Positions 1,773-38,100 of a DNA stretch of 45,495 nucleotides are shown in pieces. The DNA is taken from IMG/VR virus record IMGVR_UViG_3300033985_000217, positions 1 through 45,495 of that record. One strand, given 5' to 3'. Under the pieces are notes generated by a model. That model searched no databases. It saw nothing but the letters and a program-made list of their open reading frames with translations, and was not told the DNA's origin. Source of the stretch: a virus. Position numbers and translations under genes: made by a program. The stretch's first letter is position 1; each line of letters begins with the position of its first letter.

Positions 1773-1830
1773 CTTCCGAATTCCTTCCCCAAAAATTTGA
1801 TTTCCTAATTTCTAAAGAAAGGAGGAAAAG

Positions 1831-10071: not shown

Positions 10072-10086
10072 TCATTATTCCCCCCT

Positions 10087-10632: not shown

Positions 10633-10670
10633 ATTTTGTTTTCCCCCCTTATCAATAAAAATGGGCAAAA

Positions 10671-10686
10671 GGGGATATTAATCCCC
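10671..10686 (-). terminator. Attenuating hairpin between sheath and tube genes
   Basis: GGGGAT (10671-10676) pairs with ATCCCC (10681-10686) around an ATTA loop, seven bases after the sheath stop. Read leftward the hairpin is followed by TTTTGCCCATTTTT, an interrupted U tract, so partial termination or an mRNA-processing or stability role is more likely than a full stop. Read rightward it is followed by CGTTTTTT. Confidence 0.5.
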
Positions 10687-10692
10687 CGTTTT

Positions 10693-12687
10693 TTATCTGG
10701 TTCTAACTTTAAGAGTTATAATTCCACCTTTCATAGGTAATTCTGGGAAGTAATTAATTGTTAAATTAATATACTTTGGATTTTCCGGGTCTGCTCCATA
10801 TTCACTTACTGTAACATCGTTTCCTATTAACCCCATATTAGCATGTTCTTTCAACCTTGCATTCACTATATCAACTATCAACCTTATAGAACTCATTGTA
10901 AGTTGTTGCGTATTTTTAAGTTTGTTTTGTACTACATTGTTTATATCTTTAGCCGACCAATCAACAGAACTTACAACTGAATGTTCACTACCTTTAGAAT
11001 CCAACGTATCAGTAGTAACTTGATCGACTAATGTTGGAGCCCCTTCTACACCTTGCTCTAATACCATTAACCCTGCAGAAGAAAGAGTTTCTATTTGTAA
11101 TTCATTAAAATAAAGTCTATTATCTAATGGATAATAAATACCAATAATTTCAGGCAAAGATTGATACGTTAACTGATAATGAGGTGTAGATTCATTCATG
11201 TACTTTGTAGTTAACGCCATAACAGCACATGCACCATAAATCCCAGGAACTGGATAATTTATTCCTTTATAATTAACTTTCAAAACTGGGTTGAATATTA
11301 TATCTATTCTTTTTTCATTTATACTATCCATCTTTGATATAATATCTTCAACAATAGCTTGTTTATCGTTTAGAGCAAAGTTGGTCGACGCATCATTGAA
11401 CCCGTTGAAACCTAATGCAAATTTGACATAATCCAATTTGCTTTCTCTTTCTTTGATATAAGCATTTATTTGAGGAAGTATTGAAAATCCTGATAAAACA
11501 GTATATGCGTATACTCCTCGTTCTCCCATATAATTTAGTTTATCTTGTATATCAACCATATCGTTAAGGTCAAATATAGAATCAAAATCGTTAGAACTAG
11601 AAGTTGACGCTATAGCATAAACGCCTTGACCGGAACCAGAAATATGTAAATAACAACCGTACGCAATTGGATTCAATGGATGTATAACGCCAAATTTAGT
11701 TTCAATATCTCCTATATTTTGTATATATTGTAAAGAAGAATAAATTGGATTATCTATGTTATATTCAACAGTTAATGTTTTATCCGTCATGTCGTATGTT
11801 GGATTTATATAAATTAATCCTTTCATTGGATCTACCCAATATTCCGGGTCCACAAAACCTGAATCAGAAAAATCTCTATCTTGTAAAAAATCTGGATAAT
11901 AAACAAATTCTTCTTCCATTGGTGTTGCTGGCGTGGTTGAAGTATCCAACCAAGTTGCTTTTACTGTTAAATAAGATGTTGGATTGGTTTCAGAAAATTT
12001 TATAGGGTTGTCTCTCAACTCGAAAACAGTTTGATTTAAACTCATCGTTTGTGTAACCAAAGAGAAAGATTGTGAAGCACCTAAAGTTACTTTTTTCTGA
12101 GCCTTGTATTCTACAAGAATTGCAAAGCTTGAATTAGAATTACCTGTTCCATCTATTAGTATTGGTCTTGTTTCACCAGCCATGTTCACTGGAACTGGTG
12201 GTGTTCCTGCACCATCAACTAAAAATTTTGGAATAACTATTTTATCAGCTGTTATACCACTTGGCACTGTATTACCAAAATCATCCATCCATTCATTTTC
12301 TTTAACTACCTTAGTTATATCTACATAAGATACATCTATTTCAGGAACTTTCATAGGAGGAAATCCTCTGAAATATTCCCTTGAAAAATTTCTTATTCCT
12401 ATATCAAAAGATACCGACCCTGGAATGAGATATACTTTGACAGAATTTAAATCCACTACATCGTATAATTCGTTTCTTTTTGGATAGCTAACAATAAAAT
12501 TATCAACTTCTCCTGTCTTATACGTTATCCTTTGCCCCAATGAATCTACAACAAGGGCATCTTGTCCTTCTATTACAATGTTACTGGCACCAATTATTCC
12601 AGCTGGAAATCTTGGTATTTGTGTAGTTAATTGAGGTTCCAAAATATATTCTTGTTTGACTTTAAAGCCTGGTTTTCTGTATGCCAT
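10693..12687 (-). CDS. Contractile tail sheath protein
   Basis: This 664-residue protein forms the contractile outer tail. The C-terminal third is diagnostic: YPVPGIYGACAVMALTTKY, LYFNELQIETLSSAGLMVLE, VDQVTTDTL, then SSIRLIVDIVNARLKEHANM and a final beta strand (GGIITLKVRTR) typical of sheath domain IV. The middle holds FALGFNGFNDASTNFALNDK and other variable subdomains. I choose the ATG at 12687 (MAYRKPGFKV). A GTG at 12717 is in frame but abuts the ribosome site. The site AAGGAGGGG (12725-12717) is 29 bases away in sequence, but a seven-base-pair hairpin between them shortens the effective gap to about 12. Confidence 0.9.
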   Translation of the reverse strand: MAYRKPGFKVKQEYILEPQLTTQIPRFPAGIIGASNIVIEGQDALVVDSLGQRITYKTGEVDNFIVSYPKRNELYDVVDLNSVKVYLIPGSVSFDIGIRNFSREYFRGFPPMKVPEIDVSYVDITKVVKENEWMDDFGNTVPSGITADKIVIPKFLVDGAGTPPVPVNMAGETRPILIDGTGNSNSSFAILVEYKAQKKVTLGASQSFSLVTQTMSLNQTVFELRDNPIKFSETNPTSYLTVKATWLDTSTTPATPMEEEFVYYPDFLQDRDFSDSGFVDPEYWVDPMKGLIYINPTYDMTDKTLTVEYNIDNPIYSSLQYIQNIGDIETKFGVIHPLNPIAYGCYLHISGSGQGVYAIASTSSSNDFDSIFDLNDMVDIQDKLNYMGERGVYAYTVLSGFSILPQINAYIKERESKLDYVKFALGFNGFNDASTNFALNDKQAIVEDIISKMDSINEKRIDIIFNPVLKVNYKGINYPVPGIYGACAVMALTTKYMNESTPHYQLTYQSLPEIIGIYYPLDNRLYFNELQIETLSSAGLMVLEQGVEGAPTLVDQVTTDTLDSKGSEHSVVSSVDWSAKDINNVVQNKLKNTQQLTMSSIRLIVDIVNARLKEHANMGLIGNDVTVSEYGADPENPKYINLTINYFPELPMKGGIITLKVRTR

Positions 12688-12725
12688 TTTATTTACCGTT
12701 ATTTTATAACGGCTCACCCCTCCTT
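12687..12725 (-). promoter_or_regulatory. Hairpin-bridged ribosome binding site of the sheath gene
   Basis: Read on the mRNA strand: AAGGAGGGG (12725-12717), TGAG, a perfect seven-base-pair stem CCGTTAT/ATAACGG (12712-12706 and 12702-12696) with a three-base loop, TAAATAAA, then ATG (12687-12685). The stem accounts for the unusually long linear spacing. T4 genes 25 and 38 are known to use hairpins this way. Confidence 0.7.
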
Positions 12726-12746
12726 CTTAAACTTTTCTTTCATTTA

Positions 12747-12755
12747 ATTTTATCA
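12747..12755 (-). promoter_or_regulatory. Possible extended -10 promoter before the sheath gene
   Basis: Leftward, TGA-TAAAAT (12755-12747) matches an extended -10, in the 95-base gap before the sheath gene. No good -35 lies 17 bases upstream. It resembles the TGATATAATT boxes found at other module starts in this window. Confidence 0.35.
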
Positions 12756-12782
12756 TCTTTGATTTTGATACTTAGTAAAATA

Positions 12783-13352
12783 CTATTCCTCATCTACCAG
12801 ATTAGCAATTACTTTAACCTTTTCAAAAATACTTTCAACTAATTTGTAATCTATTTCATAATTAAATAGAACATCAGCTTGAACGGGAATATTGTATAAA
12901 ATTTTAGCATTATCCTGTATTATCATTGCAGACCCTATTCCTGCCGGTTCTACTTCATGAAAGAATCTTTCAAACGTATTTTTATACTTTTTGAGTTGCA
13001 TAAAATATTGTGTTGCTAATCTATATCCTTCAGTTTCATTTGGAGTTATAAAATTTATTATTACATTTGTAGATAATAAAAAAGTATGTAACCCTTTAGT
13101 ATATAAAGTTGAACCCGTTTCATTAGGAAAAAAATTAGTAGCATCACTAATTCCAGCAACATCAACTAAAACTATCAACCGTTTATTTCCTTTGTTATTG
13201 AATTCAACAGTATTGAATGCAAATCTCAAATCATAATCTTCTTCATCTAAACTCATCACTTCTTTTAAAAAATAATCTAAGTGATCGATGAAAACCGCTC
13301 CAATAATTTCATGAAAAGACCAGTTATATCCCTCTGCAGTCTCCGTATCCAT
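12783..13352 (-). CDS. Putative tail completion/terminator protein
   Basis: This 189-residue protein lies between the gp10-like neck protein and the sheath. The start at 13352 is well supported by AGGGGAGGC nine bases before the ATG, although this makes it overlap the preceding gene by 76 bases. The N-terminal half has FHEIIGAVFIDHLDYFLKEV and RLIVLVDVAGISDATNFF. The C-terminal half is beta-rich (SAMIIQDNAKILYNIPVQAD). No strong family match is seen. Position directly before the sheath is that of tail terminator or completion proteins in myoviruses, and I infer that role with low certainty. Confidence 0.55.
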   Translation of the reverse strand: MDTETAEGYNWSFHEIIGAVFIDHLDYFLKEVMSLDEEDYDLRFAFNTVEFNNKGNKRLIVLVDVAGISDATNFFPNETGSTLYTKGLHTFLLSTNVIINFITPNETEGYRLATQYFMQLKKYKNTFERFFHEVEPAGIGSAMIIQDNAKILYNIPVQADVLFNYEIDYKLVESIFEKVKVIANLVDEE

Positions 13353-13846
13353 GGTAATGCCTCCCCTAATGATTCTCTTGCTTCAGTTACTGCTTCTTCT
13401 ATGCTGTTAACAACGGTATTTCTTAAATAATATCTCGGAGCTATTCCTGGATTCCACCATCCACCTTGTTCAAGAGAACGTTCAGATACATATCTTATAA
13501 TAGTTGTCCCATCTTTCAATTTTATAGGTACTCGTTTGCCTCTTAAATATGTCATTTGTCGGGGACTTGTTCCTTGTTCTAAAAAGTTGAAGATTTTATT
13601 TGAAGAAATTATTCTAACACCACTAGCTTCTGGTGTTACTTTGATTCCTTCTACAAATCTTTTAACAGCTCTATTTGATAATCTCTCATCGTTAAGTAAA
13701 GTCAACTTTATATTTTGCCTTATAGCTCTAGCAATAGCACGTGTTGATAACTGATTGATATCAGCCCACGTCAAAAGGTACGTAAGTTCGTTCCCCCGCC
13801 GTACTGTATTTAGTGTGAAACGATAGGAATCTACGTAAAATATCAT
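13277..13846 (-). CDS. HK97 gp10-like neck/tail completion protein
   Basis: This is a 189-residue protein from the ATG at 13846, preceded by GGTGGAG. A TTG at 13870 in frame has no good site. A central FLEQGTSPRQMTYLRGKRVP (about 98-117) followed by I-K-L-K-D-G matches the 'F(V/L)E.GTSP...P..GK.L' signature of HK97 gp10-like and related head-tail joining proteins. Before it lies a long helix of the sort these proteins use to pack in a ring. It overlaps the upstream gene by 86 bases and the downstream gene by 76 bases, so three neck genes are tightly interlocked and probably translated in fixed ratio. Confidence 0.65.
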   Translation of the reverse strand: MIFYVDSYRFTLNTVRRGNELTYLLTWADINQLSTRAIARAIRQNIKLTLLNDERLSNRAVKRFVEGIKVTPEASGVRIISSNKIFNFLEQGTSPRQMTYLRGKRVPIKLKDGTTIIRYVSERSLEQGGWWNPGIAPRYYLRNTVVNSIEEAVTEARESLGEALPWIRRLQRDITGLFMKLLERFSSIT

Positions 13847-14579
13847 ATCTCTCCACCACTTCTCCAACAATTGATTGGTACAATATTCTATTCAAATTGG
13901 ATACAAATTTAGAACCAACTATTTTTACAACAAGATCTTGCGTATCAAAATATAAAAAATCACCTTCATAAGAAGGTATTTGTAAATCTGCTATAATAGA
14001 TATACTTTGACTCGATATGATGGGTTTTTGATTAGTTCGTCTATATGGATCCATAGTATATATCCCATAGAACTCAGTACCGGGAACGTATCCTCCTACT
14101 ATACCTGTACCAAAACATTTGGTACAGTTTGGATCACCAGCTTTTTTTAGTGTGGGATTATAACATTCACAGATTTCCCCACCTCTTTTGAGCTTAAAAA
14201 GATACCCATGTACCCCCCCGCCAAGCTTCATCTTGATATTCAATTCTTCTCTCATTTTTTCAACAACAGGGTCTTCTTTCCAACTTATATATATCGGGTC
14301 TGTTTTGTATTCTGTATTAGTTTTAGTATCTACTAATACAAGTTGATATCCTATATATCTATTAAATAAATGTGAATCCTCTTTATACAAAACATCTCGA
14401 TAAAATTCAACAAATTCAGGCAACTTTATTTTTTTTGTAATATTCTCAGGATTATCTAAAAATCGGTATAAGTACATATCCCATCTATTAACATCAAATA
14501 CATGGGCTTTGTTGAACTTCCATACTAACATGTAACCTAATGGGTCTACATATACTTGAAAATCATCTATATATTTCAC
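13761..14579 (-). CDS. Neck/virion protein with a CxC...CxxC zinc site
   Basis: This is a 272-residue protein. After an N-terminal beta-rich domain (YIDDFQVYVDPLGYMLVWKF) it has CECYNPTLKKAG then NCTKCFGTG (residues 137-158), a knuckle with cysteines at 137, 139, 152 and 155. This is followed by GIVGGYVPGTEF. The 'C..CFGTG..GGY' motif is characteristic of a virion protein family of myoviruses and jumbo phages near the neck and baseplate genes. The C-terminal part looks like a beta barrel. The GTG start at 14579 follows AAAGGGGC. Its exact place in the particle is unknown; head-tail connection is inferred from its neighbours. Confidence 0.6.
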   Translation of the reverse strand: MKYIDDFQVYVDPLGYMLVWKFNKAHVFDVNRWDMYLYRFLDNPENITKKIKLPEFVEFYRDVLYKEDSHLFNRYIGYQLVLVDTKTNTEYKTDPIYISWKEDPVVEKMREELNIKMKLGGGVHGYLFKLKRGGEICECYNPTLKKAGDPNCTKCFGTGIVGGYVPGTEFYGIYTMDPYRRTNQKPIISSQSISIIADLQIPSYEGDFLYFDTQDLVVKIVGSKFVSNLNRILYQSIVGEVVERYDILRRFLSFHTKYSTAGERTYVPFDVG

Positions 14580-14607
14580 AATGAAAAAAGCCCCTTTTTA
14601 TGAAACT

Positions 14608-15267
14608 TTAATATCCCCACCAATAGTCCCAATTTGTCAATGTTTCTGCTTCGTAAGAACCCCAAGCAGCATCCCAATTAGCTTGCCTTTTATATTCACC
14701 TAAATAGAATTGATATTTCGAATGAAACACATTGAACCATTTCTCAAAATATGGAGATTTATCCAAATCGATAGTTACTTCTCCGCCTTGCCATGGTACA
14801 TTGTTTCTACCCGCTACGTCGGATAATCTTCTGTATGCATGTGATAATGTGCCATAGATAATTATGGGGTCTATCTTACCGTATGCTTCTGGAATAGTTA
14901 GTTTTGCAGTTAATGGTGGAGTCATATTGAATTCTTGAAGTGTCAATTGAATTAATTCTATATATTGTCTATCACTGTAAAATGCTTTATTCATAAGTTT
15001 ATTTACTTCAGGGTAATCGCCAATCAACGCCCTTATTGAGGATATCCAACTTTTATATATATTTATAAGTGAATCGTTTACTAAACTTTTAAAAATAATT
15101 TGTAAATAATTTTTTTGGGGTGTACCATCTATTAATTTGGTTAAATTACTAAAATTAATTTCATTAACAAAAAAATTGGCATGTATTAGATTTTCAAAAG
15201 AAATACTTTTTGCCATGTATACTTCATTATTAACTTCTATTTCAAAACTATTAATAGTAATTGGCAT
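14608..15267 (-). CDS. Hypothetical structural protein
   Basis: This is a 219-residue protein of the neck region. It has an N-terminal beta strand pair (ITINSFEIEVNNEVYMAKSI), a helical middle, TLSHAYRRLSDVAGRNNVPW around 137-156, and a C-terminus very rich in tryptophan and tyrosine (WDAAWGSYEAETLTNWDYWW). The aromatic tail suggests a packing interface with another virion protein. AAGGAGA precedes the ATG at 15267 at good spacing. I recognise no family. Its place between small acidic head proteins and the zinc-knuckle protein suggests a head-completion role. Confidence 0.6.
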   Translation of the reverse strand: MPITINSFEIEVNNEVYMAKSISFENLIHANFFVNEINFSNLTKLIDGTPQKNYLQIIFKSLVNDSLINIYKSWISSIRALIGDYPEVNKLMNKAFYSDRQYIELIQLTLQEFNMTPPLTAKLTIPEAYGKIDPIIIYGTLSHAYRRLSDVAGRNNVPWQGGEVTIDLDKSPYFEKWFNVFHSKYQFYLGEYKRQANWDAAWGSYEAETLTNWDYWWGY

Positions 15268-15301
15268 AATTACGTCTCCTTATTGAGTTTACTAGGAGAT
15301 A

Positions 15302-15730
15302 CTATTTATCTTGAGTTTTACCAAAAAAAGCATCTAACTTTTCAATTATTTCTTTCTTAGTATCGCTTGAATTAATATCCACTCCATGTTTTTCAGCTAA
15401 TGCAACTAAATCTGCTTTAGTCATATTATCTGAATATTCAACCTGTTCAGATGGAGCTTTTTCTAAATTTTCTTCTCTTTCCTTTACCACTTCTGCTGGT
15501 TCCTCAATTGGTACAGGTGATTTTTCAGGAGCTACGACGTCCTTAACTTCTTTCACTTCTTGATATTTGATATATCCTAAATTTTGTAATACTCTTAAAT
15601 CATATAATGCTCTTTCTTCATTATCTTCTTCAACTACATAATCCACTTCTTTGCCAGCCGGAATAGCTTGAAATCTATACAATATTCTCACTGGAAATTT
15701 AGATACATTTTTTACTTTGAATGTTTTCAT
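15302..15730 (-). CDS. Small virion protein with C-terminal HeH/SAP-like domain
   Basis: This is a 142-residue protein. Residues 1-58 form a small beta/alpha domain ending ALYDLRVLQNLGYIKYQEV. A Pro/Glu/Val-rich linker (about 60-98) leads to a C-terminal helix-extended-helix (NMTKADLVALAEKHGVDINS, then KKEIIEKL, 102-136). This matches the HeH/SAP-type module that binds nucleic acid or packs on proteins. The N-terminal domain resembles that of the upstream gene (ELTKLGYLKPVSFEE), so the two are probably paralogues. The start at 15730 is separated from its ribosome site by a hairpin. Confidence 0.6.
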   Translation of the reverse strand: MKTFKVKNVSKFPVRILYRFQAIPAGKEVDYVVEEDNEERALYDLRVLQNLGYIKYQEVKEVKDVVAPEKSPVPIEEPAEVVKEREENLEKAPSEQVEYSDNMTKADLVALAEKHGVDINSSDTKKEIIEKLDAFFGKTQDK

Positions 15731-15772
15731 GTTATTTTGATGCCATAATTAAAATAGCATCATTCCCTCCTT
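15728..15772 (-). promoter_or_regulatory. Hairpin-bridged ribosome binding site
   Basis: Read on the mRNA strand: AAAGGAGGG (about 15772-15764), AAT, an eight-base-pair stem GATGCTAT/ATGGCATC (15761-15754 and 15746-15739, one U-G wobble) with a seven-base loop, AAAATAAC, then ATG (15730-15728). The linear gap exceeds 30 bases; without the stem it is about 11. Confidence 0.65.
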
Positions 15773-15784
15773 TCTTGTAATATG

Positions 15785-16135
15785 TTACATTCCACCTTTC
15801 AAAGCTTCTAATTTTTCTATAGTTATTTTTTTGTTATCGATTTTGGGATTACCCGTTTTTTTCAAACTTTCTATATATTTTAAATTTTCTTCCTTTTTGG
15901 CTTTTAAATACTCTTCACCCTTCTTATAAAATTCCTTAAATTCCTTTTCAAATTTTTCTTTTTCAGCTTCTTCAAAACTAACCGGTTTTAAATATCCTAA
16001 TTTTGTTAACTCTTCTAATTGTTCTAAAAGATCAGAATCAGCTGTTAACAAATCTACATGTATATTACTATCAGGTTCATACAATTTTTTACCCCAAATT
16101 CTCACATGACCATTCTGTGTTTTAAATTTCGCCAT
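15785..16135 (-). CDS. Small charged virion protein, paralogue of the next gene
   Basis: This is a 116-residue protein. Residues 1-55 share a pattern with the following gene: an FK(T/V) strand, VRI, a beta turn, an acidic helix and LGY(L/I)K. The rest is a long Lys/Glu helix (EKEKFEKEFKEFYKKGEEYL) and a short basic tail. It lacks the C-terminal HeH module of its neighbour. AAGGAGGT stands before the ATG at 16135. It lies directly after the capsid gene and the hairpin at 16175-16216, so a capsid-associated role such as a head-tail joining or vertex protein is possible. No family is recognised. Confidence 0.55.
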   Translation of the reverse strand: MAKFKTQNGHVRIWGKKLYEPDSNIHVDLLTADSDLLEQLEELTKLGYLKPVSFEEAEKEKFEKEFKEFYKKGEEYLKAKKEENLKYIESLKKTGNPKIDNKKITIEKLEALKGGM

Positions 16136-16174
16136 TTTTTCCAGTACCTCCTTAACTTTTTTTGAAAAATGAAA

Positions 16175-16216
16175 GGGGATAGCCCTTTTTGTTTTTTTAC
16201 AAATATTTCTATCCCC
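16175..16216 (-). terminator. Terminator/attenuator after the major capsid gene
   Basis: Leftward, GGGGATAG (16216-16209) pairs with CTATCCCC (16182-16175), eight base pairs. The loop holds a second stem, TTTGT/ACAAA. TTTCATTTTT follows. This is 18 bases after the capsid stop, and probably lets capsid mRNA exceed that of downstream genes. Confidence 0.6.
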
Positions 16217-16234
16217 CTATTACCCATCAAAAAA

Positions 16235-17185
16235 TTAATTTAATTCTAATTTTGCAACTGCTTTAGGATTGATTATGCTCATTCCAAGATTAGTCCATAC
16301 TTGGAAAGAAGCTATGTTCTTTTCTACTTCGTGCCAAAATACCAATTCTTCCTCAAGATAATACATCTTACCTAAATAATCCTCTCCAGCAAATCCAAAT
16401 ACTTCATTTGTCGCTACTACATCTTTCTTATTTGTGGTAACAAACGGTCTGTTCATCAAAGTGTTGTATTCATAACCTTTAACAAAAGTTTCTTTAAACA
16501 ATTCATCACCAAGTTCGGAAGCTGGTAAAGTTATTAAATCATTGTACAATTTAACTGGGAATAACATCATTTCAGTTTTCAAAGGTTTGTCAGCAGTATC
16601 TATAAAATTGATCATATCCATCACAGCTTTTTTGAATGAAAATCCAGTAGCAGCAAAAGTAGCTGTAGTTTGAAGCCCAGTTTTAGCAACAGCAGCTCTC
16701 ACCATATCTATAAATTTTTTCTCAATAGCCTTTTCAAAGTTATAAGTCAATCTACTTTTTATAACTTCTGTGAATGGATATTTATAAGTCCATAATTCTT
16801 CCTTTACAAATTCGATCTCAGGAGAAGTAATTTTGTAGAAATATACAGGTGCCTTATCACCTTGTACCCTTTGTGTTTCAGCTTCCGCTAGGAAATCACC
16901 AAATACTACTTCGGTAGATAACTCTGGTTCAATTTCAATATACAACATTAAACTTCTGCCAGCTGGATCTTGATCTAAATCTGCTGGTGAAATAGTTTTA
17001 GGTGTAATTATTTGAGGCAAAAACATTGCTTCTCTAACTTCCGTTTTTATTAAATCATCGATAGTTTTTCCAATTTCTTCAGATTCTGCTGTTTTATTAA
17101 ATAGAGCATCAGATATTAATTGATTAAATGCGTGAGCTCCCCCCACAGCTTTCAAAAGTTCCTCAACTTTCAAATTATTTTTCAT
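16235..17185 (-). CDS. Major capsid protein (HK97 fold)
   Basis: This is a 316-residue protein from the ATG at 17185, eight bases after GGGAGG. A GTG at 17194 is in frame but too close to that site. Context (protease upstream, decoration-like gene adjacent) and content identify it: an N-terminal helical arm (LLKAVGGAHAFNQLISDALF), then an E-loop-like beta region, the long spine helix (FEKAIEKKFIDMVRAAVAKT, about 150-169), the P-domain and A-domain strands, and a C-terminal TNLGMSIINPKAVAKLEL strand. NKTAES near residues 31-36 carries the K-x-A motif seen in other head proteins and could be the maturation cleavage site that frees the N-terminal arm. Confidence 0.85.
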   Translation of the reverse strand: MKNNLKVEELLKAVGGAHAFNQLISDALFNKTAESEEIGKTIDDLIKTEVREAMFLPQIITPKTISPADLDQDPAGRSLMLYIEIEPELSTEVVFGDFLAEAETQRVQGDKAPVYFYKITSPEIEFVKEELWTYKYPFTEVIKSRLTYNFEKAIEKKFIDMVRAAVAKTGLQTTATFAATGFSFKKAVMDMINFIDTADKPLKTEMMLFPVKLYNDLITLPASELGDELFKETFVKGYEYNTLMNRPFVTTNKKDVVATNEVFGFAGEDYLGKMYYLEEELVFWHEVEKNIASFQVWTNLGMSIINPKAVAKLELN

Positions 17186-17211
17186 GAAGTACACCTCCCA
17201 TTATTTTTTGA

Positions 17212-17709
17212 TTATAAAGTTTTGATTTTTAGTGCTATAACGCTTCCGCCCTCTTCAACAACATCTTCAACAAGGGCAATAGGTTTTACACTTGGATTTG
17301 GAGTTGCTGCTCCCTCATTAGGATCTTTGTTGGTTAATACAGTAGTATTGCCAACTTTCTTTGCATACAATGATTGTCCAGCAGCATATGCTACACCAGA
17401 ATTTTCAAAAAAATCAACTATAACTCTTGTTTGGCCAAAAAATGCTGTTAATCCATTAGATTCTAAAACATCGTTAGCTACACCTGACCCATATACTTGC
17501 ATATCCCTATTTATATCGGAAATAACCCAATAAACCACAGGATATCCATCGAATGGGATTTGCTTATATTCATCACCCAATATAGCTACAGGAGTACCAA
17601 TAGCGAACATTTCTCTTTTAACAGCTTCATCAGTTATAGCTGAATCCATTTGTTTTGTCAGTCTTTGAACATCTTTCAGACTGTGCAAAAGTTCAAATCT
17701 TCTTGCCAT
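17212..17709 (-). CDS. Putative capsid decoration/stabilisation protein
   Basis: This 165-residue protein is encoded 26 bases before the major capsid gene. The N-terminal 40 residues form a helix (LHSLKDVQRLTKQMDSAITD). The rest is beta-rich: FAIGTPVAILGDEYKQIPFD, ENSGVAYAAGQSLYAKKVGN, and a final strand GGSVIALKIKTL. The 'Y..GQ.L.........LTN..P...P.A.V' pattern resembles gpD-type head decoration proteins, which trimerise over capsid hexamers and resist internal pressure. AAGGTGAGGTG precedes the ATG at 17709. The assignment is an inference from position and beta pattern. Confidence 0.6.
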   Translation of the reverse strand: MARRFELLHSLKDVQRLTKQMDSAITDEAVKREMFAIGTPVAILGDEYKQIPFDGYPVVYWVISDINRDMQVYGSGVANDVLESNGLTAFFGQTRVIVDFFENSGVAYAAGQSLYAKKVGNTTVLTNKDPNEGAATPNPSVKPIALVEDVVEEGGSVIALKIKTL

Positions 17710-17735
17710 TAAATTTCACCTCACCTTATTTTCTA

Positions 17736-18533: not shown

Positions 18534-18581
18534 TCATTCGGCGCAGGAAACCCCATCCTTTAAAGGGTGGAGAGGATGCAC
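18534..18581 (-). CDS. Possible 15-codon leader peptide
   Basis: A GTG at 18581-18579, four bases after AAAGGAGG, opens a frame encoding V-H-P-L-H-P-L-K-D-G-V-S-C-A-E. The frame ends at TGA (18536-18534), immediately followed by the ATG of the next gene (TGA-ATG). Translating this leader would melt the hairpin and deliver ribosomes to the start codon. It may equally be accidental sequence of the inserted hairpin. Confidence 0.3.
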   Translation of the reverse strand: MHPLHPLKDGVSCAE

Positions 18582-18597
18582 CTTCCCTCCTTTCCTG
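18541..18597 (+). mobile_element. IS605-type right-end hairpin remnant
   Basis: On the plus strand, GCGCAGGAAACCCC leads into the stem CCATCC/GGGTGG (18553-18558 and 18565-18570; U-G wobble in RNA) and ends GAGGATGCACC. This resembles right ends of IS200/IS605-family elements (GAAACCCC, hairpin, GAGGATGTCAC). As plus-strand RNA the stem is fully paired; as minus-strand RNA it has an A-C mismatch, which favours the plus orientation. An outer pair CAGGAAA (18544-18550) with TTTCCTG (18591-18597) encloses it. It lies between the ribosome site and start of a leftward gene. No tnpB sequence remains upstream. Confidence 0.5.
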
Positions 18598-18621
18598 TTA
18601 AAATTGCAAAAATGACGCAAA

Positions 18622-20612: not shown

Positions 20613-20616
20613 CTCG

Positions 20617-21012
20617 TCACAAACCTTTAGCCATTAAGTTAGAATACTGCATCAACATTAGCGGATCAATTCCACCATAATTAAATGCTTTTTTAATTAT
20701 CTCTTCTACCGCATATGGAGACATGTACAAATTTGGTACAAGTTGTGCAACTGTCAACAAATATTTTCTTAATTCTTTTTTATCCCATTGAGGATATTTT
20801 TGACTCAACAATCTCTCCATCTTTAATATATCGTCAGTTGTAACTTTGATTCTAGGAGAAGCTCGACCTTTAAGATTAAGTGTACCAGTTAATCCAGTTG
20901 CAAATCTATCGGCTCCTTCATATATTTGTTCTACAAAAGAAACATATGGGAACCCGCTAGAATCAACTTGCTCAGGAGGTGAAGGCGTATTTTGATTTGT
21001 ATTTTCAGGCAT
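20617..21012 (-). CDS. Hypothetical head-assembly protein
   Basis: This is a 131-residue protein immediately upstream of the protease gene (four-base gap). The first 20 residues are a polar Pro/Asn/Ser tail. The rest is helical: YVSFVEQIYEGADRFATGL, DDILKMERLLSQKYPQWDKK, and AVEEIIKKAFNYGG near the C-terminus. No catalytic motif is visible. Its ATG at 21012 is 43 bases from a strong ribosome site, with a nine-base-pair hairpin between. The tight junction with the protease suggests coordinated expression in capsid assembly. Confidence 0.6.
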   Translation of the reverse strand: MPENTNQNTPSPPEQVDSSGFPYVSFVEQIYEGADRFATGLTGTLNLKGRASPRIKVTTDDILKMERLLSQKYPQWDKKELRKYLLTVAQLVPNLYMSPYAVEEIIKKAFNYGGIDPLMLMQYSNLMAKGL

Positions 21013-21064
21013 TTTTTTTAATAGATCTCAAAGGATTCAAGACCTATTGTTCTACCCTCCTTAA
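21010..21064 (-). promoter_or_regulatory. Hairpin-bridged ribosome binding site
   Basis: Read on the mRNA strand: TAAGGAGGG (about 21063-21055), TAGAAC, a nine-base-pair stem AATAGGTCT/AGATCTATT (21048-21040 and 21028-21020, one G-U wobble) with an 11-base loop, seven A, then ATG (21012-21010). The linear gap is about 43 bases; without the stem it is about 13. Confidence 0.65.
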
Positions 21065-21069
21065 TTGTA

Positions 21070-21570
21070 CTAGTATTTTATGTTCTTTCCAACAACGAGC
21101 ATATCGTAGGCAGCTTCTTTAATTAACTCTTCTGGTGTTCCAAAAAGTTCAATATGAGCATGCAACCTACCTCTTTCACCTGTATATCCTTCTCTTTCCA
21201 TATGTTCAGCAGCTGTTTTCTCCATTATGTCTATTGCATTTGCTACTTCTTGTAATTCATAATCTTTCAAATTTTTTGCCAAATATTCAGCAACTTTAGT
21301 CAAATAACCAGTTTCCTCGTACATCTTTTTTGCATATTCAGCATCTTTTTCCATCATATCTTGTAAATCTTCTGTGGTGTTTCTATAAGTTTTCAACATA
21401 TCCAAAGCTGTTAAAACATTTACATATGCTATCTTGAGTAGATCTCTATCTGTGTATTTGTTCTTTTGTATCTCCTCATTTAAAGCTGCCGTCTTTTCTA
21501 AATGCTTATCCTCCACACCAAAATATCTTGGCATCTCTTCTGCTACCTTCAATAATCCATCTCTTACCAT
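21070..21570 (-). CDS. Helical head-associated protein rich in K-x-A motifs
   Basis: This is a 166-residue, almost wholly helical protein. K-x-A motifs recur about every 15-30 residues: LLKVAEEMP, LEKTAALNEE, LLKIAYVN, LTKVAEYLAK, MEKTAAEHM, LIKEAAYDM. Between them are acidic amphipathic helices. No enzyme motif is seen. AAGGAGG lies before the ATG at 21570, with a 15-base gap to the upstream gene. The regular motif spacing would fit an internal head protein cut into peptides by the prohead protease, or a repetitive packing motif; the sequence alone does not decide. Confidence 0.55.
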   Translation of the reverse strand: MVRDGLLKVAEEMPRYFGVEDKHLEKTAALNEEIQKNKYTDRDLLKIAYVNVLTALDMLKTYRNTTEDLQDMMEKDAEYAKKMYEETGYLTKVAEYLAKNLKDYELQEVANAIDIMEKTAAEHMEREGYTGERGRLHAHIELFGTPEELIKEAAYDMLVVGKNIKY

Positions 21571-21585
21571 TTTCTTATAACCTCC

Positions 21586-23256
21586 TTATAATTCTTCTTT
21601 TTCGTAATAGTCTGGAATAAATGTTTCCGTTGATGCTCCTAATATACCTCCGATGATACTTGAAGTCGTTTTACCTTTACCAACTTTTTTCTTAACATCT
21701 TGATAAATATCTTCTTCTGTTATTTTACCACTGTTTAATTTGTTTATAGTTCTATTACTTAACCCTGTAGTTCGTAACTCTTTTTGATATTTATTCAGTT
21801 TCGCTTGTGCCCCACCTGCAGCAATCAAGCCACCTCCTAACGCTCCTAAAGTTACATTCCTTGCTCTTGCACCTAGATACTGTTTTCTAACTTCTTTCAA
21901 TCGCTGTTCTTGTTGCTCTTTAGTTATTTTCCCTTCTTCGTACATCTCGTTTATATTTCTAACTCTGTCTTTGTATGCCCTGTTTTCTTTACCGCCAGTA
22001 ACAGCTGTCGAAGTCAAAGCACCAGCGGTTGCACCTTGTATTCCTACTTGCAACGGTATCTTCTTTGATTTAGCCATAAATTGATCTATAGAAAATTCTA
22101 CAATTTTTTCGCCTGCTGTTGCAGCTATCTTTTCAAAGTATTTTTCATCCATTAATCCTTTGTCAACTGCGGTTTTTAACAACAATAATTTATTTTTAAT
22201 TTCATCTGTAATAGATGCTACCTTCTCATAATTTTTCACAACACTATGTACATTATATAATATGTCTTTTTGATCTTCGGTTATACTTGGCGTCTCCAAC
22301 AACATCGCTATTTTTTCTTGTTGTTTTCTGACTTTTAATTTTAATTCTGCATTTCTTATATCATTTTCTAACTTATCAGCATAATAATTAACATTTGCTA
22401 TTTTAGTTAATGTTTCATATAAATTCTCTGACCCTATATTTTCTACTTCTTCTTCTAATGCTTTTTCATAAGCCAATTTTTTAAATCCTTCTGAAACGTT
22501 TATTCCTTCAATTATATATTTTAAATTTTCTTCGGATACTTCTTTTAAACTGGCCTCTTTTCTTATAAATGTTTTTTTAACTTTATCAATAAGTCTTCTA
22601 ACTAAACTCTTCGCTTTCTTTTTATCTTCATATTTAATATTTTCTTTTTCTATTTCATTCAATAAAATTTTTTCCAATTGTTCAGGAGGTATTTTCCCCA
22701 TTATTTTCTTCATATTATTTTCTATTTCCATCAGTTTCATTCTCTGTTGCATATTGGTTACCCTTATTTCGTCTTCAGCTATCTTTAAAAATTCTACAGC
22801 AGAATCTACAGACTTTTTAGAAATAGAATCATAAAAATAGTCTTTTGGTTCTTCTTTAGTAATATTCAAAGAAGCTAATTTTGTCTGTACGGGTTCTATC
22901 CATTCTTGGGATTTAGACCAATCTATATCATCCAACAACCAATCCTCTGGATGTATACTGTTAGAAGAAACTTCGCTTTTAACTTCCTCTATTTCTATAT
23001 TTTCTTGCATTTTTTTCAACCAATTTAATACATTTTCTAATCTTATTATTGGAAATTCAACCTTGTTTTGTTCAAACAATTTTAGTTGAATAAGTTGATT
23101 AGTTCTTTCTATCAAACGTTTAATTTCATTGTAATTCAAACCTCTTTCAATAGATATCTCAGCTACTATTAAATCCGGTGATTTGCTAGTATCAGCTAAA
23201 TATATTTTTGCAACATTTGTAGCCAAAATATCGTTACTCAACTTTGTCATATTCAA
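21586..23256 (-). CDS. Large helical virion protein with Gly-rich C-terminal segments
   Basis: This is a 556-residue protein. Residues 1-370 are helical and charged, with many K-x-A motifs (LKIAEDEI, IRKEASLKE, FKKLAYEKA, LTKIANVN, QEKIAMLLE, YEKVASITD, FEKIAATAG). From about 385 two Gly/Ala hydrophobic stretches (GIQGATAGALTSTAVTGG and LGALGGGLIAAGGAQAKL) flank a basic helix, resembling the membrane-active segments of internal or ejection proteins. A third (SIIGGILGAST) lies near the end. I infer an internal head protein or ejected pilot protein. The TTG at 23256 is preferred over an ATG two codons later because GAGGAGG is nine bases before it. Confidence 0.55.
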   Translation of the reverse strand: MNMTKLSNDILATNVAKIYLADTSKSPDLIVAEISIERGLNYNEIKRLIERTNQLIQLKLFEQNKVEFPIIRLENVLNWLKKMQENIEIEEVKSEVSSNSIHPEDWLLDDIDWSKSQEWIEPVQTKLASLNITKEEPKDYFYDSISKKSVDSAVEFLKIAEDEIRVTNMQQRMKLMEIENNMKKIMGKIPPEQLEKILLNEIEKENIKYEDKKKAKSLVRRLIDKVKKTFIRKEASLKEVSEENLKYIIEGINVSEGFKKLAYEKALEEEVENIGSENLYETLTKIANVNYYADKLENDIRNAELKLKVRKQQEKIAMLLETPSITEDQKDILYNVHSVVKNYEKVASITDEIKNKLLLLKTAVDKGLMDEKYFEKIAATAGEKIVEFSIDQFMAKSKKIPLQVGIQGATAGALTSTAVTGGKENRAYKDRVRNINEMYEEGKITKEQQEQRLKEVRKQYLGARARNVTLGALGGGLIAAGGAQAKLNKYQKELRTTGLSNRTINKLNSGKITEEDIYQDVKKKVGKGKTTSSIIGGILGASTETFIPDYYEKEEL

Positions 23257-23278
23257 TTTTCCCAGCCTCCTCTTTTCA

Positions 23279-23287
23279 ATTATATCA
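23279..23287 (-). promoter_or_regulatory. Extended -10 promoter for the head-assembly genes
   Basis: Leftward, TGA-TATAAT followed by TG (23287-23277) lies in the 78-base gap between terminase and the 556-residue gene. It matches the extended -10 at 357-365, 38086-38094 and 44177-44169. No -35 match stands at 17 bases. It would start a sub-transcript of head genes. Confidence 0.5.
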
Positions 23288-23334
23288 TTGTCAAAATTTT
23301 CATTGGTTCAATATGAATCCCACTAGTTAACTAT

Positions 23335-24960
23335 TTATTCCAACTCGGAATCATTCACAGGTTCTTGTGTTATTCTAGCGTCATATGGATTGATCCTTCC
23401 AGTGCCTAAAGAAGCTGCAAGATAGCAAAAATTTAAAGCATGAAATGCATCATCAGGTTTACCTTTTTCATGAGTAAAATATATTTGTCTAAGATTCTCG
23501 TTGTAATCTTGATATATATTCAAAAAATCATTTGCAAACTCTTTCCATACTTCGTATTTTGGAAATAATATTCTTCGCTCTTTTATACGCTGCATTGTAT
23601 TACTCATAGATTGTGTTCTACTTACTATATACTTGTAACCTTCCCTATCCCATTTGATCAATATTTTTAAATTTCCATTGAGGGAGAATTCCAACACAGG
23701 GTCCATATTTGATTGTTGTTTCAATAAATCTTTCCTCAACCTAGCATTTATTCCACCAGCACCTATACCCCAATCTACACCTATTAAACTTACTCTGAAC
23801 TTTTGAGCTAACTTCAATATATCCTCATGTACATAATTCATATCAGATTCCTTACCCTTGTACTTTTTCATATACACTACTCTAAATATCCCTTTTGGAT
23901 CATATCCCCCTATAACCAAAACAGTATAAGAATCCAATTGACTGTCTTTAGATGAATACGTTGCCCAATCTATACCCATGTACAAAGGTTTGCCATAAAA
24001 AATTTCTGAATTGTATCCAGTATCCATATCTCTATTTTCAGAAGCCAATCTTAACATCTCTTCGTTCATCGGCATGTTGGCATCTTCATACGGTAATCCC
24101 AACACTTCATTGTAAAACTTACCCTTTGGATAATTACGTCTTCTGTAATTAATATCATCCCAATCTACCGTCGGAGATAAAACCTGTGGTATTCTCATCC
24201 CAATAAAATACTTATCTGTTGGATCTGCCATATTAACCCATTCACCGTTTCTTGTATCAAGCTCTTTATTGCATGAAGGATTACTACATATCAATCCATT
24301 TGGGCCTAAATTATCCTCATCAATAATATTCCATTTTCCACAATGCGTACATTTGATTGCATATTCTGACATAGTACTTTCTTTCCATGTATCCTCAATA
24401 GGATTTTGAAATCTCTTTGGAGTTCCTGTATAAAAACGATATTTGTATTCTGAACCTGATAATGTTTCGGATATAACTGGAATAGTATCCGTTAATAAAT
24501 CTTGTATTTCATCTAATCCAATCATATCAGCAGCTATACCTCTTATATGGTCAGCAGTAAGGTAAGCACTTCTTAGTATTATCTGCGACCCTGTACTAAA
24601 ATCTTTTTGAAATACATTGTCAACTGAAAATTTTGGATTCATATAATATTTTTGTATATATGGTGAATACTGTATAAAATGCTTCAATTTTTGAGACGAG
24701 AAAACTTTAACTTGATTCATAGTAGGATTGACATGTAAAATTTTAAAAAACGGTTTGGTAGTAGCATCTACTACATATTTAGCCGCCAACGTTAAAGATT
24801 TTCCAACTTGCCTTCCACATTTTGCTAAAAATCTGGGATGTTCTAAATCAAAAAAAGGTCTAAAATAATCACGCCCTTCCAATGTAAAAGGTTTGTTGTT
24901 ATATTTCAAAATTGACTCGGCAAATTCCGACCTATACATTTCTAAAGTTTTTTTGGACAT
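23335..24960 (-). CDS. terL: Terminase large subunit
   Basis: This 541-residue protein is the ATP-driven packaging motor and DNA-cutting nuclease. The ATPase has Walker A CGRQVGKS (48-55) and Walker B MIGLDEIQD with the catalytic Glu (D150, E151), followed by the coupling motif YTGTP (177-181). A zinc ribbon (C204, C207, C225, C230) sits between the domains, as in some GpA-type terminases. The RNase H-like nuclease begins YMGIDWATYS (D331) and has GVDWGIGAGG as the second acidic motif. A third acid is likely in PDDAFHAL near 515. The ATG at 24960 follows AAAGGGG. The small gene encoded just before may be its small subunit. Confidence 0.92.
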   Translation of the reverse strand: MSKKTLEMYRSEFAESILKYNNKPFTLEGRDYFRPFFDLEHPRFLAKCGRQVGKSLTLAAKYVVDATTKPFFKILHVNPTMNQVKVFSSQKLKHFIQYSPYIQKYYMNPKFSVDNVFQKDFSTGSQIILRSAYLTADHIRGIAADMIGLDEIQDLLTDTIPVISETLSGSEYKYRFYTGTPKRFQNPIEDTWKESTMSEYAIKCTHCGKWNIIDEDNLGPNGLICSNPSCNKELDTRNGEWVNMADPTDKYFIGMRIPQVLSPTVDWDDINYRRRNYPKGKFYNEVLGLPYEDANMPMNEEMLRLASENRDMDTGYNSEIFYGKPLYMGIDWATYSSKDSQLDSYTVLVIGGYDPKGIFRVVYMKKYKGKESDMNYVHEDILKLAQKFRVSLIGVDWGIGAGGINARLRKDLLKQQSNMDPVLEFSLNGNLKILIKWDREGYKYIVSRTQSMSNTMQRIKERRILFPKYEVWKEFANDFLNIYQDYNENLRQIYFTHEKGKPDDAFHALNFCYLAASLGTGRINPYDARITQEPVNDSELE

Positions 24961-24961
24961 C

Positions 24962-25150
24962 TTATACCCCTTTTTCTATCGCTAATTTACCGTCATCAGT
25001 AATTTTGCCTTCAGATGTAATATATCCATATTCTAAAAGTCTATTCTTGTATTTAATATGTTCTGGTAACAACATGCCGTTATTCTTTTCAAAAGCTTCT
25101 TTTAAAACCTGTACATATTCTTGACCTATGTCCCCATGTTTTTCTAACAT
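24962..25150 (-). CDS. Small winged-helix-like protein, possible terminase small subunit
   Basis: This 62-residue protein starts at the ATG at 25150, eight bases after TAGGAGG, and ends one base before the terminase large-subunit start. The sequence is a helix pair then a short hairpin: LLPEHIKYKNRLLEYGYIT, SEGKITDDGKLAIEKG. That 'L...G.I...GKIT..GK.AI' ending is a winged-helix C-terminal pattern. A DNA-recognising small terminase is plausible from position, but it is shorter than most. A small regulator is the alternative. Confidence 0.5.
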   Translation of the reverse strand: MLEKHGDIGQEYVQVLKEAFEKNNGMLLPEHIKYKNRLLEYGYITSEGKITDDGKLAIEKGV

Positions 25151-25162
25151 AAAGAATGCCTC

Positions 25163-25543
25163 CTAGTAGACCCCTACCATTTTTCTTATACGTTTAACCA
25201 ATTCCTCATCTTTTTTGTTAATAAAATCTCCTTCTACAATGTCATATAATTCGTATTTTGACGAAAATAGATCAAAAAATCCTACTGTATACTCACTATC
25301 TTCTTCTTTTGAAAACAAATCTACTATATTCGTTCGCATTAATATAGGTATTAAATATCCTTCATCTACTTCTATTTCACTTTGTTGCTTTGGATTCAAT
25401 ATTTTAAAAGATTTTTGGGTTATTTTAAAAATTATGTTTTTATGTTCTCCTTTCAATTCATAACTATCCGGTATTGAACCTACAAAATACTTTATATAAT
25501 TACTGTTTGAGTTATTCTCTTCAACATTAATTGTGTATTTCAA
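25163..25543 (-). CDS. Hypothetical protein upstream of terminase
   Basis: This is a 126-residue protein. I place the start at the TTG at 25543, eight bases after GGGAGA; an ATG three codons upstream directly abuts the site. It is beta-rich in the first half (KYTINVEENN, NIIFKITQKSFKIL) with a helical C-terminus (DEELVKRIRKMVGVY). Acidic residues dominate the middle. No motif or family is recognised. It lies between tail and packaging genes in a run of closely spaced leftward genes. Confidence 0.55.
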   Translation of the reverse strand: MKYTINVEENNSNSNYIKYFVGSIPDSYELKGEHKNIIFKITQKSFKILNPKQQSEIEVDEGYLIPILMRTNIVDLFSKEEDSEYTVGFFDLFSSKYELYDIVEGDFINKKDEELVKRIRKMVGVY

Positions 25544-25563
25544 AGGTATCATCTCCCTAAAAA

Positions 25564-26445
25564 TTATTTTTTGCCTTTTAATTTATATAAAATTTTTATC
25601 AATGAATCATAATTTAAACTTTCAACACCTTGTTCTTTTGCTAACTTCTGAATTTCATCTATCAATTCTTTATCTTCACCCAACATCTTACCTAAATCAG
25701 GCACCTTTATATTGATATGTTGTAACAACTCATTACTATCTACATCCTTGTTTAATTGCCCTGCAACATTGAATATATTGTTTATAGAATTATCCGTACC
25801 AATACTAGTTAAACCTCCAAGTAAATTCTTTATCATACTTGCCGTTTGATCTATACTTTGTGGATTTTCTATTAACCTGCCTATTTCTTCTTGTAATTTA
25901 GTTAGTGTTTCATCACTTCGCCCTTTCATATAGGAATAATCAAATTCCTCCAAATGTCTTATCATAGCTTGTATAGTTGCTCTACCCCATTCATCGTTGT
26001 AAACTCTTATCTTAAAAAAATCTGGGCAATCTTTAAATTCGCTGTATTTAATAACATATTTCAATTCACCAGTTGCATCAGTTTTAGTTTCTAACTCTTT
26101 TGTTTTATTAATATTTATGGTTACCTTTGCTTCTTTCCTTTCAGGTGCCTTTAAATACAACTGTGTATCTTGATTTTCATATACAGTCAATCTAGTCGGA
26201 TACCTTTCCCAAGTTCTATAAAAAGCTCCATTTTTAAAAAATATATTATTTAATTGTGTTTCTATCTCTTTTTTAGGAGCATTAACAGCTACTACAACCG
26301 TAGCATCATCAGTTTCAGGAAAAGCGAGATTGTTAGAATTCCATACTGAATATGGTTTTCCAGAATCTTTATTGACTAACACTAAACTATATACAGTATC
26401 AGGTTTTAATTGATCAACAGGAACTACATCGTATACTTTTATCAC
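25564..26445 (-). CDS. Probable tail or baseplate protein with a beta-sandwich domain
   Basis: This is a 293-residue protein. Residues 1-90 are beta-rich (TVYSLVLVNKDSGKPYSVWN, TVVVAVNAPKKE). Residues about 95-155 look like an Ig- or carboxypeptidase-regulatory-type sandwich (LTVYENQDTQLYLKAP, KVTININKTKELETKTDATG). The C-terminal 120 residues are helical with an Asn/Gly/Ser middle. GTG start at 26445 follows GAGGAGG at nine bases. It is next to the first fibre gene, so a baseplate or fibre-attachment role is likely. I recognise no specific family. Confidence 0.55.
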   Translation of the reverse strand: MIKVYDVVPVDQLKPDTVYSLVLVNKDSGKPYSVWNSNNLAFPETDDATVVVAVNAPKKEIETQLNNIFFKNGAFYRTWERYPTRLTVYENQDTQLYLKAPERKEAKVTININKTKELETKTDATGELKYVIKYSEFKDCPDFFKIRVYNDEWGRATIQAMIRHLEEFDYSYMKGRSDETLTKLQEEIGRLIENPQSIDQTASMIKNLLGGLTSIGTDNSINNIFNVAGQLNKDVDSNELLQHINIKVPDLGKMLGEDKELIDEIQKLAKEQGVESLNYDSLIKILYKLKGKK

Positions 26446-26458
26446 AATTATTACCTCC

Positions 26459-27610
26459 TCAATTCACGGCTACAAATATCAACAAATCTACATCAACAGC
26501 TGAACTTTGTGGAAAATCATATGCATACATTTTTATATCGTATCCATTCCAAGCTACCATAACATAATTTGGAGGTGCATTTCTTTCAGTACCTACATTT
26601 ATACCTATTAATTTTTGTTGAACCAGTATGCCTAAAATATCACCAAAAGTTCTGTTGTTTTCTAACATAGAATTGTTTAAAGATAATGAAAATTGAACGT
26701 ATCTACCTCTGCTAACAGAAGCATTTATTTTTACTACTTTTGCTAATTGATTACTTCTTATCTTCTTAGTCGTTGCATTCATTGAAGAACCTGTTTTAAA
26801 TCCGTTTATGTTATGTGGATACTGTAAATTCAGATATGCTTCAGGTCTACCTACGTCTATCGTATTAGTCGCTTCTATATCGTAAACGTCTACATATATA
26901 TAATTGGATAATGGTATAGGTTCTTCAAAGGTTAAAAATTTTGATAAAGCTTCTTCTTTTGGATAATACAAATCATCATGGTTGTGTTCTTTTGGAGAAA
27001 AAGAACTCTGGGTATATATATTGCCATTAACATCTTTTAAAGCGGTTGTATCTTCTACAATGTCATTTTTTTTGTAATAATCAGAACCATGGTTATGTTG
27101 TTTAAAAGCTAGATCTTGTACCCTTACTCCATCAATCTCTACTGCATTAGGAACTATATCATCCTTTTTGTAATATTCAGGATGTTCATGTTCTTTTCTA
27201 GCAAAGGTAGAATAATCAACCCCTGATAGTTTTTCTGTAACAGTAATTACGTCATCTTGTTTAACATAATCATGTGTATGTTCTGCAGGTGCTAAATCAG
27301 TAGGTTTATAATTATTTACACCATCCGTTATTGTGTATGCTCCGTCTATTACTTCACCTTTTACAACATATTCTGAATGTATATGGTCTTTCATTGCAAA
27401 CTCTGATAATTCTTTATTCAATATTCTATATGTATAATTAGAATACGGCACCATATATTTAGATACCGCTGGTAATAACATTTCTGTCACTTTAAAAGAA
27501 TTTGCTACATTGATCACTTCCGACACATTCAATGCTGAATCCTTTGAAGCTTGAAGAATATAATTCAATATTTTAACTTTCTGTGCTTCCTCATTTATTA
27601 ATCTTTTCAT
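26459..27610 (-). CDS. Tail fibre/adhesin with five H-x-H repeats
   Basis: This is a 383-residue protein. A helical N-terminus (1-70) is followed by five H-x-H motifs at 76-78, 111-113, 141-143, 172-174 and 209-211 (KDHIHSEY, AEHTHDYV, KEHEHPEYY, KQHNHGSDYY, KEHNHDDLYY). Each is followed by Tyr-rich sequence and a turn. In T4 gp37 such motifs bind metal ions on the axis of a trimeric fibre; the same is inferred here. The C-terminal 150 residues are beta-rich and may form the receptor-binding or attachment domain. The ATG at 27610 is separated from AAGGAGG by a hairpin. Confidence 0.75.
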   Translation of the reverse strand: MKRLINEEAQKVKILNYILQASKDSALNVSEVINVANSFKVTEMLLPAVSKYMVPYSNYTYRILNKELSEFAMKDHIHSEYVVKGEVIDGAYTITDGVNNYKPTDLAPAEHTHDYVKQDDVITVTEKLSGVDYSTFARKEHEHPEYYKKDDIVPNAVEIDGVRVQDLAFKQHNHGSDYYKKNDIVEDTTALKDVNGNIYTQSSFSPKEHNHDDLYYPKEEALSKFLTFEEPIPLSNYIYVDVYDIEATNTIDVGRPEAYLNLQYPHNINGFKTGSSMNATTKKIRSNQLAKVVKINASVSRGRYVQFSLSLNNSMLENNRTFGDILGILVQQKLIGINVGTERNAPPNYVMVAWNGYDIKMYAYDFPQSSAVDVDLLIFVAVN

Positions 27611-27641
27611 AAAATTAAGTGCCTAAGCACTTTGCCTCCTT
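27608..27641 (-). promoter_or_regulatory. Hairpin-bridged ribosome binding site
   Basis: Read on the mRNA strand: AAGGAGG (27641-27635), CA, a perfect six-base-pair stem AAGTGC/GCACTT (27632-27627 and 27622-27617) with a TTAG loop, AATTTT, then ATG (27610-27608). The linear gap is 24 bases; without the stem it is eight, an ideal spacing. Confidence 0.7.
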
Positions 27642-27643
27642 CC

Positions 27644-37964: not shown

Positions 37965-37991
37965 TAAAACCCCCTGCTATTTTTATGAAAA

Positions 37992-38094: not shown

Positions 38095-38100
38095 TGTATT

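Follow-up and report, generated by a model that had tools for sequence, protein, structure and literature searches.

Probable hairpin-bridged split ribosome-binding sites in a phage genome, some of them apparently formed by IscB/HEARO right ends

The window analysed here is a 45,495-nucleotide (nt) stretch of viral DNA, IMG/VR record IMGVR_UViG_3300033985_000217, in which five leftward genes have a strong Shine-Dalgarno (SD) sequence, AAGGAGG, at an over-long distance from their ATG, with a hairpin in between. We consider it probable, from gap geometry, fixed starts, shuffled sequences and control genomes, that these leaders and others like them are hairpin-bridged split ribosome-binding sites, and that in four cases (window start 18533, starts 10586 and 18855 of genome G1, start 67759 of genome G2) an IscB/HEARO right end serves as the bridging device. 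G1 is a 185,437-base IMG/VR phage record, and the window corresponds to its positions 57664-103158, with one mismatch. G2, of 183,532 bases and about 70% nucleotide identity to G1, was the only relative found: scans of viral contigs with the terminase, a 664-amino-acid (aa) protein and the capsid protein gave no other close relative, genome contigs scanned by terminase gave none, and a megablast search of phage records with window 10000-30000 gave no match. Among the phage records, 194 have a terminase match, all below 60% identity.

An earlier, sequence-only reading of this DNA had described the five SD-hairpin-ATG layouts, and all are present, on the minus strand. The putative split site of the 664-aa gene 10693-12687 (12688..12725) has AAGGAGG at 12719-12725, a hairpin at 12695-12713 and a 7-nt spacer. 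That of gene 15302-15730 (15731..15772) has AAGGAGG at 15766-15772, a 9-base-pair (bp) hairpin at 15738-15762 and again a 7-nt spacer. For gene 20617-21012 (21013..21062) the elements are AAGGAGG at 21056-21062, a 13-bp hairpin with wobbles at 21020-21048 and a 7-nt spacer, and for gene 26459-27610 (27611..27641) AAGGAGG at 27635-27641, a 6-bp hairpin at 27617-27632 and a 6-nt spacer. Ahead of gene 17736-18533 (18534..18592), where an IscB/HEARO-type right end appears to act as the split site, AAGGAGG at 18586-18592 is followed by a two-helix hairpin at 18540-18582, a 6-nt spacer and ATGA. Named by their start positions, 12687, 15730, 18533, 21012 and 27610 have AAGGAGG-to-ATG gaps of 31, 35, 52, 43 and 24 nt, and folding of the main stem leaves about 12, 10, 9, 14 and 8 nt unpaired, respectively; under RNAfold, extra outer pairs cut the remainder at 12687 to 4 nt. 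The folding z scores of the gaps are -3.3, -4.9, -2.3, -2.8 and -3.1, in the same order.

The start codons of the layout genes are fixed by in-frame stops and by the N-termini of orthologues. Four of the five window genes (15730, 18533, 21012 and 27610) have an in-frame stop within the gap, and therefore no nearer start is usable: TAA lies 7 codons ahead of the ATG at 15730, TGA 6 codons ahead at 21012 and TAG 5 codons ahead at 27610. The frame of 12687 is open back to a GTG 1 nt past AAGGAGG; the G2 protein begins at the same MAYR, which argues against that upstream GTG.

The layout is not confined to the window. With the same home-made gene caller applied to G1, G2 and all control genomes, we counted genes that lack an SD at 3-13 nt and have AGGAGG 14-90 nt upstream of the start (distant-only genes). 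There are 16 among 209 called genes in G1 and 2 among 209 in G2; the control counts are 0/266 (T4), 1/196 (SPO1), 1/189 (A511), 0/229 (K), 1/170 (phiYS40), 1/222 (IMG/VR record G003) and 0/262 (first 200 kb of phage G). This rule misses sites with a weaker SD, since neither of the two known split sites of T4 is caught by it. A single hairpin domain bridges 15 of the 16 distant-only genes of G1, where 4.5 are expected from shuffled gaps. Both distant-only genes of G2 are bridged as well (1.0 expected), and among the controls the bridging rule is passed by the SPO1 case alone, a 77-nt gap ahead of a 44-aa open reading frame (ORF).

Further statistics were drawn from 19 gaps, of which 17 are from G1 (the 15 bridged genes, 18855, whose 91-nt gap lies outside the 16/209 count, and the doubtful 59530, which is window 1867) and two from G2; candidate 51321 (49 aa, z +0.38) had been removed beforehand as doubtful. 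The mean fold z of the set is -3.4 (Fisher p 5e-20). The hairpin ends 6-8 nt from the ATG in 13 of the 19, a distance found in 15.5% of shuffles (p 3e-7), and by RNAfold the spacing left after the hairpin is 8-15 nt in 16; in the remaining three it is 2, 4 and 5 nt, lowered by extra outer pairs. Bridging of the kind described for T4 genes 25 and 38, to which the earlier reading had pointed, is well supported by the gap geometry and the fixed starts, and by the comparison with shuffles and with control genomes.

The same reading had named a lack of these stems in relatives as grounds for refuting it, and that is the outcome here: the layout is absent from 15 of 15 G2 orthologues matched start to start (by inspection), which speaks against long-term conservation. 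These G2 genes have ordinary or weak SDs near the ATG, and the rule flags just two other G2 genes, 45655 and 67759. The G2 orthologue of 12687 has AGGAGG, 10 nt and the ATG; those of 15730, 21012 and 27610 read AAAGGAGGAATTAGAAAATG, AAAGGAGGATACGTGCAATG and GAGGAGGAAATATAATG. In 15 of 15 comparisons G1 has the longer intergenic gap, the upstream gene being orthologous in 12 of them; this gap measures 54 nt in G1 and -4 in G2 for 15730, and 33 and -1 nt for 27610. Since the G2 orthologues lack the layout, the device is lineage-specific; gain in G1 and loss in G2 are indistinguishable, save at sites with an iscB. The G2 orthologue of 18533 (GAAGGGAGGTGTGCTCCCATG; ATG at G2 135419, minus strand) could itself form a 5-bp stem, with the SD inside: its GGGAG can pair with CTCCC abutting the ATG, an arrangement that would hide the SD, not bridge it.

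The most informative clue to the origin of some of these devices is the hairpin at 18533, which the sequence-only reading had called IS605-type. It has a UUCCUC / UUCC internal loop, and four leaders (18533, G1 10586, G1 18855 and G2 67759) share the order stem - UUCCUC - hairpin - UUCC - stem'. R2, a model built from bacterial right ends only, finds it at 18541-18581 with 27.1 bits and an E value of 2.2e-5 in 20 kb (4e-4 over both phages), and recovers all four phage sites, at 33.3, 31.2, 27.1 and 25.3 bits. The hairpin is followed by GAATGAATGA, with [A/G]TGA directly outside the end. Judged by this sequence evidence, it appears to be an IscB/HEARO (IS605-like) right end. Because no iscB adjoins 18533 and the window contains no HEARO RNA or other Rfam family at Rfam cut-offs, it would be a lone right end, not a complete element.

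At the other three sites the element, or part of it, is still in place. G1 10586 starts directly after an iscB gene (RRXRR and HNH domains) with a HEARO RNA upstream, and an 88% match to a bacterial contig stops at the ATG of the phage gene. G1 18855 follows another iscB with a HEARO RNA, and G2 67759 follows a HEARO RNA whose iscB is a short fusion of both ends (a deletion read by eye). An empty-site comparison is available for 10586 and 18855 and is counted as support; at the empty site of 18855, G2 has the same GTGA ahead of the ATG. Behind the third iscB of G1 (103247) there is no such hairpin; what comes next is AAAAGGAGATGTTTTTATGAC, which is an ordinary site. Six HEARO RNAs were found in G1, counted up to 180 kb, and one in G2, counted up to 140 kb. 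In G1 and G2, R2 also has three matches at E <0.05 away from split sites, L011:6913 (29.5 bits), L024:19628 (22.5) and L012:11631 (21.6), which we take for ends of other IS605-like elements.

Two other regions are of note. G1 106893-108760 and G2 177821-179687 are inverted relative to each other, 79% identical, and carry right-end-like hairpins by both models. At L013:11340-12883 of G1, a HEARO RNA is followed by tnpB, not iscB, apparently a TnpB element inside an IscB element.

Two right-end models were built. The first, R1, derives from alignment A4, which comprises 15 right ends, phage ones included. From 38 stretches came 11 matches with a stem, of which 8 are its IMG/VR members, picked by AAAGGAGG, by the letters of the loop and by having a stem of at least 5; L151 (G2's own copy) and the chance-like L133 and L156 were excluded. 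Three bacterial right ends in A4 were located solely by their position behind iscB. R2 derives from alignment A5 (14 right ends, bacterial only), whose members were selected through R1; A5 is less biased, not bias-free, because they were picked by iscB and then by R1 hits that score pairing. R1 locates the right-end hairpin in 14 of the 19 bacterial iscB loci searched, 3 of the 14 being model members, and gives a single match (E 0.69) on 680 kb of five control phages. In the outer stem of A5, both sides of the pair change at 5 of 5 positions, and covariation is 0.66 vs 0.20 in shuffles.

HEARO elements insert 5' of ATGA or GTGA. Most flanks fit this; 10586 (ATGT) does not. By raw count, an [A/G]TG occurs at most 11 nt past the hairpin at 13 of 14 right ends from bacteria, at 8 of 8 from IMG/VR (where the search pattern contained AAAGGAGG) and at 4 of 4 from G1 and G2. 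A frame of at least 60 codons opens within +16 in 5 of 14, 7 of 8 and 3 of 4, respectively; for 18855, a frame of 211 codons begins with an ATG at +19. Of 17 bacterial loci, 9 have GGAGG 2-14 nt ahead of the stem (by eye). From their sequences, bacterial right ends look like portable ribosome-binding sites that would re-arm a split start, and a riboswitch-like control is possible, in which UUCCUC of the internal loop pairs with GGAGG as a candidate SD/anti-SD switch.

In the mechanism that we propose, the hairpin between AAGGAGG and ATG would fold out most of the over-long gap, and a 30S subunit bound at AAGGAGG could thereby reach the ATG; the geometry is that described above, and the step itself follows the precedent of T4 genes 25 and 38. 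An IscB/HEARO element would sit directly ahead of an [A/G]TG start signal and separate the gene from its old SD, while its own right end would provide a new AAGGAGG, hairpin and spacer. We infer that the right ends serve as ribosome sites in this manner. Should an IscB right end work as a ready-made initiation site, this would explain how elements landing on start signals can be harmless, and also how a new kind of leader can come to spread across a genome.

A bolder extension is that IscB/HEARO right ends are portable, outward-facing sites that make insertion tolerated, and that in G1 such ends outlived their elements and were reduced to simple hairpins, forming a genome-wide class of initiation sites of transposon origin. 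We hold this tentatively, as a possibility that falls short of being probable. The simple class comprises window 12687, 15730, 21012 and 27610, about nine more sites in G1, and G2 45655, all without right-end loops; the four window hairpins have no R2 match to E 10, with filters off, in window 10000-30000. The claim of the sequence-only reading that the hairpins are unrelated holds for the loops, the simple stems having none in common, and does not wholly hold for the stems, as [AG][AG][CT]GC opens 7 of 15 simple stems. This motif, chosen post hoc, is also found in some right ends, and its frequency in other G1 hairpins is 0.8-1.6%; the same letters place GTG 4-6 nt past AGGAGG in 9 gaps. Of 75 alignment comparisons with right ends, the highest scores are those of G1 182712 (z 4.2) and 59530 (z 3.4), which like the motif favours descent from such ends. 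Only 6 of 15 simple sites start with ATGA (by eye), which counts against it. The exact pattern AAAGGAGGNNNGGTGCN{4,34}GCACCN{6,9}ATG has one hit among viral contigs, in G1 itself. Descent of the simple hairpins from right ends is only suggested by these data.

Several observations weigh against hairpin bridging or its link with right ends. When the SD is included in the fold, 18533 (z -0.1), 21012 (-1.3) and 27610 (-1.6) are unremarkable, and the gap of 171828 folds like shuffles (z -0.45). The simple hairpins have no match to a right-end model to E 10. Of the 17 bacterial loci, L112 has its GGAGG farther away and 7 lack one, so that its role there may be incidental. The comparison across phages depends on one relative. 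Finally, GTG occurs 4-6 nt past AGGAGG in 9 of the 19 gaps and ATG in 1, giving possible mini-ORFs.

These last codons raise the idea that AAGGAGG drives a mini-ORF from a GTG or ATG inside the hairpin, whose translation opens the stem and finishes close to the main ATG, which ribosomes then reach by coupling or re-initiation. The 10 of 19 gaps compare with 1.7 expected (p 1e-6), an out-of-frame mini-ORF ends within -12..+6 of the ATG in 4 of 19 (0.8 expected, p 0.008), and at 18533 an in-frame mini-ORF of 15 codons stops directly ahead of the ATG. However, 6 of the 10 have a spacing of 4, whereas strong canonical G1 genes use 4 in 0/118 and 5 in 2/118; the start is GTG in 9 of the 10, compared with 9/118 in those genes. 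Because spacing and codon are so unlike those of the phage's genes, we read this GTG as part of the stem, not as a start. Moreover, 9 of the 19 gaps have no mini-ORF start codon, and the T4 precedent is accounted for without one; we therefore find the idea rather unlikely.

Stable stems close to the SD, and the recurrent GGTGC stem base as a potential recognition motif, could also mean that the hairpins chiefly stabilise or process the mRNA or bind a phage repressor, the long SD-ATG distance being a by-product. Yet the simple stems vary from 4 to 13 bp with unrelated loops, the hairpin mostly ends 6-8 nt from the ATG, a regularity that these roles would not require, and the leader of 27610 is hardly a 5' end because the whole intergenic gap is 33 nt; we give this explanation little credence. 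Chance palindromes or wrongly chosen start codons are a concern with a home-made gene caller, for which start choice matters, as the dropped 51321 illustrates, but they are disfavoured by the shuffles, controls, in-frame stops and orthologue N-termini, and we think them very improbable. Hairpin bridging accordingly remains the reading that we prefer.

The sequence-only reading had further suggested a shared control of late genes. This was dropped because the layout genes lie scattered along the genome in both orientations, with no loop common to the simple stems; the proteins it labelled 'sheath' and 'fibre' have no family match. A restriction to late genes is also doubtful given a possible sixth site in the window, on the plus strand downstream of DnaB (1819..1866), with AAGGAGG at 1819-1825, a GGTGC/GCACC hairpin at 1829-1859 and the ATG at 1867. 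As a split site it is itself doubtful: its gap z is -2.0, but +0.5 with the SD in the fold, and an in-frame GTG lies at 1831, 5 nt past AAGGAGG.

Elsewhere in the window, 37983-38242 is a dispersed repeat with a 99% copy at G1 116528-116787; a 142-nt part of it recurs at G1 152863-153004, where a tnpB gene with OrfB_IS605 and Cas12f1-like domains ends, and the repeat looks like an ORF-less IS605/TnpB element. The ribonucleotide reductase large chain (40473-43505) has an intein-like insert (Intein_splicing 34.3 bits, cut-off 35.8). Phage-borne transfer-messenger RNA matches, each with a tRNA gene nearby, occur in G2 (L017:2205-2635, Rfam 112.8 bits) and G1 (L011:17876-17948, 65.4 bits over just 73 bases), and a Type II hammerhead ribozyme match lies at G2 L016:4957-5023 (42.1 bits).

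Among the titles and abstract openings surveyed, no phage with many split sites was reported, and no IscB right end acting as an outward ribosome-binding site; PMC9755519 makes no mention of Shine-Dalgarno, ribosome binding or right end. The right-end sites resemble known IscB/HEARO elements (ISC, IS200/IS605-type) in their HEARO RNA, RRXRR-HNH protein, right-end hairpin and, at most flanks, placement directly 5' of ATGA/GTGA, 18533 differing from a complete element in keeping the right end only. According to PMC9581776, the terminal hairpin of omega-RNA contains the SD of isrB. This is likewise a transposon RNA hairpin with an SD, but it sits just upstream of the element's own gene, whereas the SD of the phage right ends faces outward.

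The closest parallel is T4, in which, according to PMC3014915, a hairpin shortens the SD-ATG distance from 22 to 5 nt in gene 38 and from 27 to 11 nt in gene 25, the latter site being confined to close T-even relatives. Over-long spacing and a gap hairpin that would restore a functional distance are common to both phages: at the window sites the SD is strong and over 20 nt away from the start, with a hairpin that leaves functional spacing, and the lineage-specific presence of the device resembles that of gene 25 among T-even phages. Split sites were previously known singly, in T4-like phages, and the new element is one phage with about 16 of them. As about 8% of the genes called in this phage use the layout, a start reached past structure becomes testable as a rule. 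Compared with the two genes of T4, G1 has about 16, with gaps of up to 91 nt and at least three transposon-end sites.

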